The translations under genes and the position numbers were made by a program. Positions 11,141 through 18,503 of a DNA stretch of 25,831 bases are shown one piece after another. The stretch is from a virus. The first letter of the stretch is position 1. Every line of letters starts with the position of its first letter. The DNA lies in the IMG/VR virus record IMGVR_UViG_3300042185_000002, positions 1 through 25,831 of that record; one strand, given 5' to 3'. The notes below the pieces were generated by a model. The model ran no database searches. It saw only the letters and a program-made list of their open reading frames with translations, and was not told the DNA's origin.

Positions 11141-12337
11141 TTATGCTTCAGTAATATCTGTGATCTTACCGTGAGAGTTACGACGGTGGGTACCGAGCTG
11201 GCAGTACTTATAAAGTGTAGCGTCATAAGCATCATAACCAATAACGCGCTGCCACTTGGAACCGTCTCGGTCCATAAAGGACCAGTCTGATTCCCTGTAG
11301 ATCTTAAGTTCCTTCTCGTTAATGAAGTACATACGGTTAGGCTGGCAGTCAACATCGGTGATAACCGGGATTTCACCGTTATCTGTAGCGAATGCTAGAC
11401 CCTTAAATCCGCCCTCAAAGTCCTTCGTGTCACAATAACGTCGCTGCTGAGTAAGCAGGTTGAAGTAAGCGCGACGGACACCGAGGGTAGTAAAGATAGC
11501 CGTAGTATTCCCACCATTGGTGTAAACATCATCGACCATCTTAATCATCAGACCCTCAGAAAGAGCCCGACTAACCCCACCGTTAGAGTTAATAACAGAC
11601 TTCCACAGAGGCTCTGTGGCAGGATTAATATTAAACAGAGGAGCCGTATCATCAACAATCTGGGCCAGACCGATAATTTCTCGGTTAAGCGAACCCTGAC
11701 GGACAACAATATCCGTGTTAACTGTAGCTACACCAGGTGCTGTAGACACCGTAAAGTTGGTGTTCTTAGTAATGGCGGTAATAGTCACGCCACCTACAGC
11801 AGTCTTGAGGGTAACACCTGTAGCGTCGTAAACATCTACAAGCATTCCAACTTCAAGATACTGGGTATTCGTAGCCGGGATAACCGCAGCCGCGTTAGCA
11901 CCAGTAATAGTAGCGAGAGCACCTACAGAAGTGCCATAAACCTGACGGTTAAAGTCCTTCGCCAGATCTCGCTGAATACCATTAACTTCCTCATCAAGAA
12001 CTGATGCGAAAGCCTGGAAATTACTCTGGGCCAATTCCATAGACTGACCCGAAAGTCTAACAGAACCATACTGGTAGCTCAAAAGAACCTGAGCACGGGC
12101 ATAACCCTGGTTCTGAGCTACAGGAAGCTGTTCCATTTCAAGTCGCGCACCAATACCATGGTTACGCTTGACGTGAACAGGAAATACAACGTACTTACCG
12201 CCGACTTCAGAAGTAACACCTTCTGAAGTTTGCTCAATACGCTTAGAAGTTTTAAGCCAATTCTGAAGCTGTTCACGAATACGCGGTTCGTAAATTTCCT
12301 TCAGAATATTAGTTGCTGTGGTGAGCGTAGCTCCCAT
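11141..12337 (-). CDS. major capsid protein
   Basis: 398 aa. The start (TTATNILKEIYEPRI) and the segment GIGARLEMEQLPVA followed by a strand-rich block and a long helix (SNFQAFASVLDEEVNG, about 105-120) fit an HK97-fold coat protein. A beta-rich Ala/Thr/Val insertion at about 140-215 looks like an added Ig- or I-domain. The coat protein forms the icosahedral shell, assembled on the scaffold encoded just upstream. ATG 12337 is preceded by CCGGAGGTTA, an excellent ribosome binding site. A hairpin follows the stop. Identification rests on gene order, size and overall pattern. Confidence 0.85.
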   Translation of the reverse strand: MGATLTTATNILKEIYEPRIREQLQNWLKTSKRIEQTSEGVTSEVGGKYVVFPVHVKRNHGIGARLEMEQLPVAQNQGYARAQVLLSYQYGSVRLSGQSMELAQSNFQAFASVLDEEVNGIQRDLAKDFNRQVYGTSVGALATITGANAAAVIPATNTQYLEVGMLVDVYDATGVTLKTAVGGVTITAITKNTNFTVSTAPGVATVNTDIVVRQGSLNREIIGLAQIVDDTAPLFNINPATEPLWKSVINSNGGVSRALSEGLMIKMVDDVYTNGGNTTAIFTTLGVRRAYFNLLTQQRRYCDTKDFEGGFKGLAFATDNGEIPVITDVDCQPNRMYFINEKELKIYRESDWSFMDRDGSKWQRVIGYDAYDATLYKYCQLGTHRRNSHGKITDITEA

Positions 12338-12354: not shown

Positions 12355-13137
12355 TTACTGTTGCCGCGCTGCGGCCTCAGCCATCTTTGCAACGAGATTA
12401 CGAGTTTCTTTGTTACTAAGCTTAGTTGGATCGATCGCATTAGAGGGAATACCATTCCCACCAGAACTACCAAGAAGCGTAGGTGCAAAAGGCTGAGGAG
12501 TAATACGTTGAACCAGAGCCTGATAAGACTTTACTGCGTCTTCTCCAGACATACCCAGTTGCATCTTAGCGAGAACGTAATCCTCGTCGTATTCTCCATG
12601 CGCTGTCTTAAGATCTTCAAGTTCCTTATTAAGCGCGTTATCAGCGTTTGCATCCTGCTTAGCCTGCGCATCATTCAGTACAATTTGGGATACAGCTTGA
12701 AGAAGCCCATCATGCTGATTAAGCTTTTCCAGAATCTCAGGAGGAAGATTACTGAGAGGATTCTCTTCCTCTTCCTCTGTTTCCTGGCCTTCCGGCTGTT
12801 GTCCAAAATTATAAGCACTCTGGAGAGCAGAATACACGTTCCGAGGATTATTATTGATCTCATACAGGAGCCTAATACCCTGTTCGAGTTCCTCAGAAGT
12901 AATACCATGCTCTACATAAGGCTTATACGCCTCGAATTGAGCAAGCTGGGCATTAACAGATTCCACACGCTGGTTAGCGGAATCATCCCACTTCTTAAAT
13001 GTAGGCGTAACTACTGAATGAAATTGTTCTGGCAGCAAATCAAGAACTTCACTCCACGCCGGATTAAGCCCTGGAGAACCTTCGCCCGTCGGCTCGATTC
13101 CCTGTACTTCTCCGGTCGATTCGATAGGAGTTCCCAT
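12355..13137 (-). CDS. capsid assembly scaffold protein
   Basis: 260 aa, acidic, helical and Gln/Glu/Asn-rich. The segment FHSVVTPTFKKWDDSANQRVESVN (residues about 37-60, quoted here in part) followed by predicted long helices and a Glu run (EEEEEN, about 120-126) is typical of phage scaffolds. The C-terminus is rich in Lys/Arg/Ala, as expected for coat binding. It sits directly upstream of the coat gene with a 17-nt gap. Scaffolds guide coat assembly and leave before or during packaging. The ribosome binding site is AGAGGAAATA before ATG 13137. Confidence 0.8.
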   Translation of the reverse strand: MGTPIESTGEVQGIEPTGEGSPGLNPAWSEVLDLLPEQFHSVVTPTFKKWDDSANQRVESVNAQLAQFEAYKPYVEHGITSEELEQGIRLLYEINNNPRNVYSALQSAYNFGQQPEGQETEEEEENPLSNLPPEILEKLNQHDGLLQAVSQIVLNDAQAKQDANADNALNKELEDLKTAHGEYDEDYVLAKMQLGMSGEDAVKSYQALVQRITPQPFAPTLLGSSGGNGIPSNAIDPTKLSNKETRNLVAKMAEAAARQQ

Positions 13138-13197: not shown

Positions 13198-13446
13198 TTA
13201 AATGGGCTTACCTTCGCGAGGTTCGCTCTTAGATTTATTTTCCTGTGCCACCATAGCCCTTACAAAACAATCCTTAGCTTCAAGGAGCTTTCGAAGACCC
13301 GCAGTAAGCTCAGGATCATCATCAATTCTACCCAGAATAGTTTCAGAAAGTTCTGCGCAAGCAAATGAAATAAATCGAAGAGGCTCAGGAAGATGATCGT
13401 ATTCAAAGAAACGAGTAATAGCTTCTACAGAAGGGTGTCTATTCAT
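13198..13446 (-). CDS. Acb2/Tad1-hairpin-family protein, candidate cyclic-oligonucleotide sponge (anti-CBASS/anti-Thoeris)
   Basis: 82 aa. Two helical blocks match my memory of the Acb2 family: HPS...FFEYDHLP at 4-20, and ELTAGLRKLLEAKDCFVRA, of which ELTAGLRKLLEAKD spans 46-59 and CFVRA 60-64. The spacing between blocks is short, as in a helical hairpin, and a disordered Lys/Glu tail follows. Characterised Acb2 proteins form hexamers that bind cyclic di- and trinucleotides and so block CBASS signalling; related Tad proteins block Thoeris. Start ATG 13446 overlaps the preceding stop (TAATG), so it is expressed with the structural genes. Activity is an inference; no structure or search was run. 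Confidence 0.7.
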   Translation of the reverse strand: MNRHPSVEAITRFFEYDHLPEPLRFISFACAELSETILGRIDDDPELTAGLRKLLEAKDCFVRAMVAQENKSKSEPREGKPI

Positions 13447-13595
13447 TAATTCTTAGCCCCACTATCCTTCTTGCGTCGGGCTGCGATACGTCGACTAATT
13501 GCATTCATCTTAGCATCTCCACCCGAGGGTTGTCCAGCGCTCCCTACAGGAGAATTATTAGCCTTAGTAAGACCAGGGGGAAGCTGCTTCTTCAT
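13446..13595 (-). CDS. hypothetical 49-aa basic protein
   Basis: A short gene filling the gap between two others. It begins MKKQLPPGLTKANNSPVG, is rich in Gly/Ser in the centre and has a basic helical end (AISRRIAARRKKDSG). The ATG at 13595 overlaps the previous stop (TAATG), and its own stop overlaps the next start in the same way, so both ends support a real coupled gene. It carries a CTACAGGAG copy at 13544 that reads SPVG. Function unknown; a DNA- or capsid-binding peptide is possible. Confidence 0.65.
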   Translation of the reverse strand: MKKQLPPGLTKANNSPVGSAGQPSGGDAKMNAISRRIAARRKKDSGAKN

Positions 13596-13867
13596 TATGC
13601 GACCCTCGCAGTCTGGGCAGGGTAGTAATCAGTAATAGAAGCCTGCTGACCTCTACAGGCGCGCCAAGCGAAAATAAGGTCATTAAGAGTCATCGTCGCC
13701 ATATTCTCGGCGGTGTAAGTAAACGCGTCAAAGGTATTCAGCGCAGTCTTAATTGCTGTAATATCCTCAGTCTCCGCGTAATTCGTAATAGGGTTAGTGG
13801 CTGCACCCTGAGTTCTACGAATGTCGGTATAGTTAAGATTTACTGCTCCCAAAAGAGCATCTGCCAT
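13595..13867 (-). CDS. hypothetical 90-aa protein after the portal
   Basis: 90 aa, Ala/Thr/Asn-rich, without transmembrane segments. The segment TMTLNDLIFAWRACRGQQ (about 58-75) looks like a small helix pair. Start ATG 13867 follows GGAGGCTA and overlaps the end of the portal gene. Placed between portal and scaffold it might be a head accessory protein; I recognise no family. Confidence 0.55.
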   Translation of the reverse strand: MADALLGAVNLNYTDIRRTQGAATNPITNYAETEDITAIKTALNTFDAFTYTAENMATMTLNDLIFAWRACRGQQASITDYYPAQTARVA

Positions 13868-15996
13868 TAGCCTCCAAATCCTCCACTAACGGGCGCCTGC
13901 CCAGTATCTACCATTTGTTGTGCTGTTCCATCAGTAGAAGCCTGTCCCGGAGTAATAGGCTGAGCACCTTCACTAGGAGCAGGCATACCAGGAATCATAC
14001 CCATAGCCATCATATGCTGATTAACATGGGCTTCAAACAGATCCTTAATACGCTGAGGAAGCTGTTCATATTCCTGACCCTTGCGATAGTTATTGTGAAC
14101 CTGAATATGAATTTGATGGTTATCGTAACTATTAACAGGTACAATAAGAGGAGGTTCAGTAGGCATGCCCATTTCATCTACAAGGGGTCCACCAGTATTA
14201 GGATCAACCATTATAGCTTGCTGAGTAACAGGATCAGTACCCTGGAAGGTTTGCAGATACTGAGCCATATTTTCTTCGGTAACAGTACTCATCTTCATAT
14301 TCTCACGTGCAGCCTGAGAACTATCAATCTGAATCTCTTCATAAAGTCTGTTAACTCCGCCAACTTCCATAAGCTCAAGACCCTTTTCCGGTGGAATAAA
14401 TCCATTGGTCATAAGATCCATCAATAGAGCTTGCTTACCAGCTTTAGAAGTTGGGAGAGCTGAGCCAGCCTCAACCCTAATATCCGTATTAGATCGGAGA
14501 TCTGAACCAGCGAATGCCATTACATTAAATTGCCCATCGCGACCAACTACTCTAACTGCACGAGGGACAGTCCAGTATTGCTTCACATAATTGAGAGTCT
14601 GATAGCCTATCTTCTCAAAACCTTCTTCAATACCAGCAAATGTAGTACTGAGCATAGATTCGTCTTGCTCCTGTAGGAAGCTAATAGCCGTTGCGGCTGT
14701 TACTCCCGGAGGAACTTGACCCTTAGATACCTGATGCTGGCCACTAAGATCTTCAAAATCCAAAAGCTGTCGTTCAATTTCCTGAACAACATAAGAAGGA
14801 AGATCTTGAAGTGGAAGAGGCTGAGGAATAGGAAATCCAAGTTTATAAAGAATAACTTGACCCGGCTCAGTAGTTATCTTGGAAGCATCAATAGAACCTT
14901 CAGCCGCCAACAATTGTGGGTGACCCATACGATTTTTAGCTTCAATGATTTGACCACGAGTACGATTGTACTCTCGCTGAACAGGGATCAAGTCTGTAAT
15001 AACTGAATCAGCATAGAATCTACCTGTAGGCAAATGAGGAAATCTAATAAATGGGTATTGCTGATGGTGGTAAGGGTTACCTTCAGTATACTGAACGATA
15101 GTATCACCGATAATAGTATACATTCCTCCATTAGGCATAAATTCTACATGCCCTGGCTTTACCCAAACTTCGTAACAGAGAATAGCATTCTTGCGAAAAT
15201 CGCCTGCCCCAACAAGCTGCAAGAAGCTATCATTAAGGATATCGTTAGCTTCCATTACATTGGGCTGTGCCTTAATACCAGGATAACGCGCCTGTACCCA
15301 TTCAGGACTCTTGGTCTGAATATGGATAATATAAGGCTGATCCTCAATATCCTCTACAAGCATATCGGGAAAGAATAGATGAAACGGAGTTATATTCTCA
15401 TAACAAAAATCACCAGACTCACCCTGGGGATCTTTCTTATTAGGGTCCCAATATGTCTTCATAAAACCAGTACCAGTACACAAAGTCCAAAGCATAGTTT
15501 GACGAAACGTAGCTTTAATCTTCTTTTCTCTGTAAGTCGAGTCCCAAATTTGTTCTCCTGCCTGTGCAGCAGCGAGATCCTTATCATCACTTGATGCTGG
15601 AACAATAGTAGCAGTTGGCTTTTGTGAAGTCAACTTAGCCAGTTCAGTACGAATAATAGGCCGAATACGGTTAATTACAGGACGAGCACGATAATAAGGA
15701 GCAGGAGGGATATATAGCCGTACTCCAGTAGCAGCGCTGCTAGCAGAAGAAATAGGAATGACTGCGACATTCTGCTTGCCAATGTAGAAAGCCAGGTTGA
15801 TATACCACTGTCTCTCAAGTTGCTGCCTAATCGTTCGGCATCGCATATGAGCAGATTTAGTCCACTCAATAATACGATTCTCCTGATCCTTACGCTTAGA
15901 TGACTTAGCAAGATCAGAAAGCTGCTTATCACTATATTTATTATTGTCCTCTACAGTTCCACCCATCATAGAAGACATAGAGGGTTCTACAGTCAA
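13867..15996 (-). CDS. portal protein (P22-like size class)
   Basis: 709 aa, close to the P22 portal (725). Features: a basic N-terminal helical region (ENRIIEWTKSAHMRCRTIRQ), a wing with FGNP-free but YRARPVINRIRPI at about 100-112, clip and stem segments near IPVQREYNRTRGQIIEAKNR (about 335-354), and a Gln/Pro-rich, disordered C-terminus. The portal forms the dodecameric vertex through which terminase packages DNA. The start is TTG 15996 with GGGAGG 3 nt upstream; ATG 15978 is an alternative. It follows TerL by about 1 kb and precedes scaffold and coat, the usual order. Only a few motif copies fall in it. Confidence 0.85.
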   Translation of the reverse strand: MTVEPSMSSMMGGTVEDNNKYSDKQLSDLAKSSKRKDQENRIIEWTKSAHMRCRTIRQQLERQWYINLAFYIGKQNVAVIPISSASSAATGVRLYIPPAPYYRARPVINRIRPIIRTELAKLTSQKPTATIVPASSDDKDLAAAQAGEQIWDSTYREKKIKATFRQTMLWTLCTGTGFMKTYWDPNKKDPQGESGDFCYENITPFHLFFPDMLVEDIEDQPYIIHIQTKSPEWVQARYPGIKAQPNVMEANDILNDSFLQLVGAGDFRKNAILCYEVWVKPGHVEFMPNGGMYTIIGDTIVQYTEGNPYHHQQYPFIRFPHLPTGRFYADSVITDLIPVQREYNRTRGQIIEAKNRMGHPQLLAAEGSIDASKITTEPGQVILYKLGFPIPQPLPLQDLPSYVVQEIERQLLDFEDLSGQHQVSKGQVPPGVTAATAISFLQEQDESMLSTTFAGIEEGFEKIGYQTLNYVKQYWTVPRAVRVVGRDGQFNVMAFAGSDLRSNTDIRVEAGSALPTSKAGKQALLMDLMTNGFIPPEKGLELMEVGGVNRLYEEIQIDSSQAARENMKMSTVTEENMAQYLQTFQGTDPVTQQAIMVDPNTGGPLVDEMGMPTEPPLIVPVNSYDNHQIHIQVHNNYRKGQEYEQLPQRIKDLFEAHVNQHMMAMGMIPGMPAPSEGAQPITPGQASTDGTAQQMVDTGQAPVSGGFGG

Positions 15997-16653: not shown

Positions 16654-16984
16654 TATCAATGTCCTTAAAAAGGTTATCAAGATCAACGGAACTAGTAGGA
16701 TCTTCCTCTACAGGGGAAGACAAATTATCTTCCTCTACAGGGAGAGATTCCTCTACAGGAACTTCATCCGGACTAAGCATTTCAAAAGTACTAACCGATG
16801 AAGGAACATTAAGATCCGGGTATTTCGGGTACCGATCTACGTGATAAGCAACACGCGGTTCACGACCTTCGCGACGAGCATTATAATCTTCCCTAGCCTG
16901 AGCGTCTACTTCGTCGAGAAAAGGCCCGGCTCCTGCTGCACCAAGAGTAGGATTTTCCCAAATCTTAGGGTCAACATCAGTCAT
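16631..16984 (-). CDS. hypothetical acidic protein with PVEE repeats
   Basis: 117 aa. The first half includes DARAREDYNARREGRE-like helical sequence (as read: VDAQAREDYNARREGRE); the second half is acidic and proline-rich with three PVEE units (VPVEES, LPVEED, SPVEED) at about 75-95. These units are encoded by three closely spaced copies of the TCCTCTACAGG word. Start ATG 16984 overlaps the terminase stop (GATGACTGA), with GAGAGAGG upstream. No family recognised. It may be a terminase- or head-associated accessory protein, judged from position alone. Confidence 0.55.
   Translation of the reverse strand: MTDVDPKIWENPTLGAAGAGPFLDEVDAQAREDYNARREGREPRVAYHVDRYPKYPDLNVPSSVSTFEMLSPDEVPVEESLPVEEDNLSSPVEEDPTSSVDLDNLFKDIDNDSEPTE
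16703..16761 (+). repeat. three close copies of TTCCTCTACAGG
   Basis: TTCCTCTACAGGGG at 16703-16716, TTCCTCTACAGGGA at 16730-16743 and ATTCCTCTACAGGAAC at 16748-16763 approximately. On the coding (minus) strand each reads CCTGTAGAGGA and gives PVEE. Spacing between copies is 27 and 18 nt, which are codon multiples. This is the densest cluster of the dispersed motif in the window. Confidence 0.85.
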
Positions 16985-18503
16985 CGTTAAGTACCTCTCT
17001 CCATTCAGTCTTTTTATTTAGAGCCTGCGGAGTTAGATTAGGATCAATATTAGGAAGATGAGCCCACTTAGCACTATTGCCGCCAATCGCAGGAAGTTCC
17101 AACTTCTTAGGAAGCTCAGGCGGCTTTTTGAGGTCCGGAAGAAAGGAAAAGAAGTATCTGGCGGAATCACACGCGTGGTCATCTTTTTTATGAATTTCGT
17201 CATAAGGGTTATTCTCAGACTGTTGTTTACGTGATGCCCAAGTTTTCCAACGAAGTCTCCCAATCTCTTTGATCAGGTTACCACAATTCTTGGTAATGAG
17301 CCAGTTGGGTTTACCATCAGCACCAAAATCCAAATATTGATTAACTTTAGCTATACCAACTTTTACATCATTATTTCCTGGAGCCATACCTATTCCACGA
17401 ATGGCGTACTCAACCTGGATGGAAGTTCCAGTAAGCGCCTGACGCTGCTGTAGGGCCGGATCACAGACTCTCAGATCGGGCAGTCTCCCATGTGTTTCAT
17501 CCCGAGTTTTAATAACTTCCGAATGATAATCAATAGTTTTCTCAGCTTCATAGTGCTCAGCAAAAGTAATAACTCGACCATCAGGCTCTACACAATGCCA
17601 TAGCACGGCTGTAGGATTATTAAATCCATGGTCTAGTGACATATACCAACGATTAGCAGGATGCGCCAATATCTTCATATCTACAGGATCAATAACGTGC
17701 GTAGCTATCGAGAAGTTCTTATAAACTAGTCCACCACGCTGAACAAAATGTCCAGCACCGCGAATTTCACGTTCTGCGGGAGTAAGTTTACTAAGAAAAT
17801 CCTCTACAGCTTGTGGATCAAGATGGGGATTTTCTTCCATCCCTACTTCGATAACATCTATCTCAGGATCACCAATACGTCCCGGTTCATAAATCTGCTC
17901 GAAAATCCAAATCATTCCCTCTACAGGGGTTAGCGTGAACCATTCTCGACCCTTGCGGTCAATAAGTCGCGCTAGATTTTCAATCCTAATATGCTCTGGG
18001 GGTTCTTCGTCATAGTGAATGAAATCTCGACTAGTACCAGCAAATTTGTCTAGATCCTGGTCATACGACATTAGCTCTACAAAGGAACCATTCTCAAAAT
18101 TAAGTACTCGCTCCGCAGAATCATAAGCACTAAACCACGATCCACCTCTAAGTTGGGATGGAGGAACCCATTGCTGTAGTTGAGGCTTAATAATCTTGTT
18201 AACACCATTAGCAAAGTCAACAGAAATAATACGTCCTGCTACTGGCCTATTCTTAGGAGTATCAAGATAAGGATGCTTACCGGTGAGCCACCAAATATCT
18301 TCAACAATACCACCGGTAGTCTTACCTGATCGGTTACCACCAATATAGAGTCGTACTGGCTTATCTGACTTATGAAATTTCTTCTGTTTTTCATGGGGTA
18401 CATACGAATTCATATCCGGAGTGACGGCAACACGATTAAGACCATCTGCCATCTCTTTAATGGCATCTGCAAAATTAACGATAGGCTTTGCGTATCTAGC
18501 CAT
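16977..18503 (-). CDS. terL: terminase large subunit
   Basis: 508 aa. The N-terminal ATPase has Walker A GGNRSGKTT at 55-63 and Walker B FIHYDEEP at 161-168, with a C-motif-like segment FTLTPVEG at about 189-196. The RNase H-like nuclease has acidic residues in YMSLDHGFNNPTA (Asp291), RVCDPA (Asp348) and the late KDDHACDSARY (Asp441/442/446). It drives ATP-dependent DNA packaging through the portal and makes the cuts. ATG 18503 is directly after the preceding stop. Several CTACAGG copies read DPVDM and TPVEG. Very secure. Confidence 0.97.
   Translation of the reverse strand: MARYAKPIVNFADAIKEMADGLNRVAVTPDMNSYVPHEKQKKFHKSDKPVRLYIGGNRSGKTTGGIVEDIWWLTGKHPYLDTPKNRPVAGRIISVDFANGVNKIIKPQLQQWVPPSQLRGGSWFSAYDSAERVLNFENGSFVELMSYDQDLDKFAGTSRDFIHYDEEPPEHIRIENLARLIDRKGREWFTLTPVEGMIWIFEQIYEPGRIGDPEIDVIEVGMEENPHLDPQAVEDFLSKLTPAEREIRGAGHFVQRGGLVYKNFSIATHVIDPVDMKILAHPANRWYMSLDHGFNNPTAVLWHCVEPDGRVITFAEHYEAEKTIDYHSEVIKTRDETHGRLPDLRVCDPALQQRQALTGTSIQVEYAIRGIGMAPGNNDVKVGIAKVNQYLDFGADGKPNWLITKNCGNLIKEIGRLRWKTWASRKQQSENNPYDEIHKKDDHACDSARYFFSFLPDLKKPPELPKKLELPAIGGNSAKWAHLPNIDPNLTPQALNKKTEWREVLNDD

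Follow-up and report, generated by a model that had tools for sequence, protein, structure and literature searches.

Between the portal gene and the major capsid gene of a 25.8 kb virus fragment lies a short open reading frame, and the question raised by this locus is whether its product is an Acb2-like anti-CBASS or anti-Thoeris protein, as a preliminary description had proposed. In the window, that is, the whole analysed stretch of 25,831 nucleotides, the frame occupies positions 13198..13446 on the minus strand, begins with ATG, is intact and encodes an 82-aa helical-hairpin protein of the phrog_5120/phrog_1761 family. Both sequence blocks singled out in that description are present, each standing out by its conservation in the family: FFEYDHLP (residues 13-20; 13387..13410, minus) in the loop joining the N-terminal helix to the hairpin, and LTAGLRKLLEAKD (residues 47-59; 13270..13308, minus), the family signature, in the second hairpin helix. 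The placement of the gene inside a head-gene block also holds. The structural block runs in the order TerL (16977-18503), the P22-like portal protein (13867..15996, minus), the 82-aa gene, a 260-aa protein of unknown function in a scaffold-like position (phrog_33339; 12355..13137, minus) and the SU10-like major head protein (11141..12337, minus). A small ORF of 49 aa (13446..13595, minus) precedes the 82-aa frame, its stop overlapping the start codon within TAATG, and homologous ORFs are likewise located upstream in the close relatives L008 and L012.

The 82-aa ORF is a genuine gene and not a chance ORF, since it is intact, is under purifying selection (dN/dS ~0.17-0.28 against five relatives) and belongs to a family whose members in phages and prophages number in the hundreds. 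In HMM searches the protein matches PHROG 5120 with an E-value of 2.6e-26 over residues 2-72, as well as the C-terminal half of phrog_1761 (E 1.9e-19). It is a clear member, with no noted difference, of these families, which carry no function and are labelled "unknown function" in the database. With tblastn, 331 phage records yield relatives, the best at E 7e-17; almost all of the matches listed are labelled hypothetical. At least 583 relatives are present in IMG/VR, and 193 occur in GTDB genomes, which extend from Actinobacteria to Proteobacteria, Chloroflexi and Bacteroidota. The IMG/VR and GTDB relatives were gathered with RKLLEAK(D) as the search pattern, and the INPHARED set from annotated phages by tblastn without a motif pattern. 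A literature search returned no paper naming PF24729 (the Acb2/Tad1 hairpin family of Pfam) or PHROG 5120. Two family members, L147:3001-3189 and L168:1806-2000, contain an in-frame stop inside the domain, which may represent a pseudogene, a sequencing error or a recoded stop.

The AlphaFold2 monomer of the 82-aa protein (pLDDT 95.2, pTM 0.82) consists of three helices, at residues 5-14, 23-40 and 45-72 (13231..13434, minus). A review describes the Acb2 architecture as one short N-terminal helix followed by two long antiparallel helices (PMC12043709), and the predicted monomer has this topology, with a short N-terminal helix leading into a two-helix hairpin. A similar arrangement is predicted for a protein of the type of Gordonia phage Rosalind gp50, whose helices span residues 6-15, 24-47 and 52-74. 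Foldseek against the PDB returns no Acb2 or Tad1 for the 82-aa model, and none for the model of the Rosalind-type control, a genuine PF24729 protein; this negative is uninformative, because the family of the control does match a solved Acb2 homolog by sequence. Among viral models, Foldseek ranks an "Acb2/Tad1 hairpin domain-containing protein" directly after the family members (probability 0.97, E 0.38), and Acb2/Tad1 hairpin proteins occupy ranks 7, 13 and 14.

By direct comparison, the 82-aa protein is not a recognised Acb2. The HMM search against PF24729 that had been proposed as a check leaves the protein unmatched at E<=1, short of the 27-bit cut-off that defines Pfam membership, and detects nothing in the whole record; the best PF24729 match of any family member has an E-value of 0.054. 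As controls, the solved Acb2s PaP2 p26 and T4 Vs.4 match PF24729 at 3e-18 and 7e-20, respectively. Searching the PDB by sequence and by profile with the protein and its family retrieves no Acb2. The profile search does retrieve phage P1 Gp22 (PDB 8jaj; E 0.017, with a domain E of 0.054), but this protein of 529 aa, which comes from work on the P1 tail, is judged a chance match. In hhalign, the family profile scores 13.6 against PaP2-type Acb2 (P 0.045) and 11.3 against T4-type Acb2 (P 0.18), both inside the shuffle range. PADLOC does not match the 82-aa protein, but it likewise leaves PaP2 Acb2 unmatched. The likeness to PaP2 p26 (PDB 8H2J) and T4 Vs.4 (PDB 7UQ2) lies in the short N-terminal helix and the hairpin, with no significant match in sequence or profile. 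The FFEYDHLP and LTAGLRKLLEAKD blocks, which had been read as motifs of the Acb2/Tad1 hairpin, are in fact the signature of PHROG 5120.

A distant connection emerges when the family is compared with the actinophage branch of PF24729, represented by a profile built from relatives of Rosalind gp50, which itself matches PF24729 at 2e-21. The family aligns with this profile at an hhalign probability of 91, a P of 1e-6 and a score of 34.3, compared with a mean of 10.3 (sd 2.4, maximum 18.3) over 300 column shuffles and 9.9 for the reversed template. With more members added, the score rises to 36-39 and P falls to 1.6e-7, the latter value being reached with the INPHARED tblastn set, gathered independently of the motif. 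The solved PaP2-type and T4-type Acb2s reach just 20.5 and 23.2 when scored against this branch, so that the family is closer to it than they are. When the two families are searched reciprocally with HMMER in small pools, E-values reach ~1e-6, with 56 of the 165 family members clearing the 1e-3 threshold. The Rosalind-type profile in turn matches PDB 9ptq, "Acb2 homolog 43" (1e-9), and Tad1 (7e-5). The 82-aa protein on its own is too divergent for the Rosalind-type HMM, which does not list it even at E<=10, and the link therefore rests on other members of the family.

The two groups are alike in predicted topology and in helix length, and they have in common an F-x-[YF] pattern ahead of the hairpin, L-A in helix 2, and LP-x-G-x-E and K-L-x-E-A in helix 3, the alignment being almost ungapped across LP.G.E...KL.EA. 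They differ in that the 82-aa protein has no Pfam match and a shorter stretch from F-x-[YF] to helix 2. Tad1 (PDB 7UAV, 8SMD and 8KBB-8KBH) belongs to the same C-terminal hairpin superfamily, reached from the 82-aa protein only through the Rosalind-type profile, and possesses an N-terminal beta domain (PMC12043709) that the 82-aa protein lacks. It is likely that the family shares ancestry with the Acb2/Tad1-hairpin superfamily and forms a divergent branch of it that lacks annotation. Of the designation "Acb2-like", what stands is this significant relationship to the actinophage branch and the predicted Acb2 topology; the part implying a match to PF24729, to an Acb2 in the PDB or to PaP2/T4-type profiles does not. 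Canonical PF24729 proteins were looked for on 34 family contigs; a weak PF24729-like gene turned up on one of them and a partial, marginal match on another. On contig G002, a protein of 77 aa (L198:1465-1698, minus) matches PF24729 below threshold, at 21 bits, and the contig also carries a member of the PHROG 5120-type family (L013/L121); one phage may therefore carry both hairpin types.

Conservation across the family is concentrated at F14, Y16, H18, L19, P20, A or S34 and E46, and along the last helix at R52-K53-L54-L55-E56-A57-K58-D59, V62 and R63. The strictness of the RKLLEAKD block is partly a matter of ascertainment, because RKLLEAK(D) served as the search pattern. Phage members as distant as any examined retain [A/S]K[D/N] following E56. 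In the roseophage members, found by tblastn, the block reads LRSLWEAKNLAVFA, and K53 and R63 are replaced. The invariant residues of the Rosalind-type branch (H30, R34, W67, N69 and R74) are mostly not kept in the PHROG 5120-type family, and the family's conserved K58, D59 and R63 are without counterparts in that branch. If a pocket exists, it therefore differs, and its ligand may differ as well. By eye, Y16 aligns with Acb2 Y11, a ligand-stacking residue, and the family has no conserved lysine at the position of Acb2 K26, a ligand contact; the alignment there is uncertain.

The surroundings of the gene vary from phage to phage, in a scattered, passenger-like distribution resembling that of an accessory gene. 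The slot beside the 260-aa gene is kept in seven related loci, all of them close relatives. Elsewhere, the family gene is preceded by a minor tail gene or is close to genes for the major capsid protein, primase, topoisomerase, RNase E, exonuclease, holin or TerL. In Henu6 it is near topoisomerase and RNA ligase, in Erwinia Y3 near primase and in BirdsNest near RNase E; in roseophages it comes after phosphoesterase and thymidylate synthase. In the N4-like roseophages (L406:335-1486, L407:312-1475 and L408:59-1276), the preceding genes are a metallophosphoesterase/exonuclease-like gene and thymidylate synthase, with the family gene directly after them or one gene beyond. A conserved partner gene was also sought. 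The downstream genes seemed translationally coupled, but the neighbour clusters are almost all singletons outside the lineage of the window phage, and this candidate was dropped. Apart from gene position, nothing supports the link to capsid sensing, in which late expression would coincide with CBASS triggered by the capsid, as relatives occupy many different genome contexts.

In four Rhodococcus-type loci, the domain forms the N-terminus of an ORF that runs in frame into an HK97-type prohead protease (L182:3001-4872, L187:3001-4878, L349:4001-4333, which is cut, and L403:4001-5875). In L182 and L403, the two examined with Pfam, the ORF comprises an S78 protease and a capsid protein (PF04586 and PF25209). 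These fusions are the only concrete tie of the domain to capsids. Two other fusions place the domain at the C-terminus, after a P-loop-like N-terminus in Erwinia phage Y3 (L321:3758-4177) and after a DnaJ/anti-TRAP-like zinc-ribbon N-terminus in Ochrobactrum phage OH (L322:765-1130), the Pfam matches being weak in both. The member in Roseovarius phage FR682616 (L409:1432-1695) is labelled "structural protein" in the database. Virion proteomics of the sister phage RPP1 reported gp28 in virions and paired it with DSS3phi2 gp30 (PMC4193335), one gene before the DSS3phi2 family member, gp31; the label is therefore probably a numbering slip and is not counted as evidence.

The proposed explanation is that the gene encodes a small, all-helical protein, predicted to fold as a short N-terminal helix and a two-helix hairpin, which by analogy with Acb2 and Tad1 would probably assemble into a symmetric oligomer. 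Pockets between its subunits would then probably trap a small immune signal of host origin, the candidates being a cyclic oligonucleotide or an ADP-ribose derivative. That the protein works like Acb2 is plausible. Known sponges set off Panoptes OptSE (PMC12657218). The oligomer, its ligand, the sponge function and an anti-CBASS or anti-Thoeris role are all things that we infer, and for the sponge function itself we put the chance at slightly below even. A bolder form of the proposal appears doubtful: PHROG 5120/1761 would constitute a separate, very widespread class of phage signal sponges in the Acb2/Tad1 superfamily, the LRKLLEAKD helix would form the pocket, the ligand would be unlike those of Acb2 and Tad1, and some Rhodococcus phages would make the sponge within a capsid protease-capsid polyprotein, hence together with the capsid.

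The position of the gene invites a competing reading, in which the protein helps to assemble the capsid or portal, as a chaperone, a scaffold-like factor or a protease-associated domain, and its likeness to the Acb2 hairpin is ancestral only. Its strongest point is the fusion to prohead protease in the Rhodococcus-type loci, and the gene does lie between portal and major capsid genes in the window phage and related loci. However, its position with respect to portal, protease and TerL varies, and many members, such as those of Henu6, Erwinia Y3, BirdsNest and the roseophages, are distant from head genes. A head or packaging gene is detected inside the fetched flank in at least 51 of 177 loci, a count that speaks for such a role; yet about a third of loci near head genes may not exceed chance expectation, and no enrichment near head genes is claimed. 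On balance, a part in head assembly seems rather unlikely.

The protein might instead inhibit or regulate a host protein, contacting it through the conserved charged surface that the last helix presents (R52, K53, E56, K58, D59 and R63) rather than sequestering a small molecule. Such a role accords with how very strictly the charged residues along a single helix of this small protein are conserved, and with the fusions to small modules, zinc-ribbon-like in phage OH and P-loop-like in Erwinia Y3. A ligand pocket would explain the same conservation, which is in part ascertainment and is relaxed at K53 and R63 in roseophage members, and we regard this role as unlikely. It is improbable that the family has no relation to Acb2/Tad1 and that convergence on a short helical hairpin, with its shared helix patterns, accounts for the profile similarity. 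The non-significant comparison with validated Acb2 and the negative Foldseek search of the PDB would fit convergence, but the shuffled and reversed controls fall far under the observed score, and the alignment passes almost without gaps through LP.G.E...KL.EA.

Hundreds of phages of unrelated hosts, including Actinobacteria, Vibrio, Acinetobacter, Erwinia and roseobacters, carry this gene as a "hypothetical protein". If the protein is a head-assembly factor, the capsid-protease fusions offer a simple test. If it is a sponge, the phosphoesterase adjoining it in roseophages may be worth attention, many phages would be carrying a counter-defence gene that has gone unrecognised, and the charged helix, by its conservation, would point to a ligand that can be searched for.
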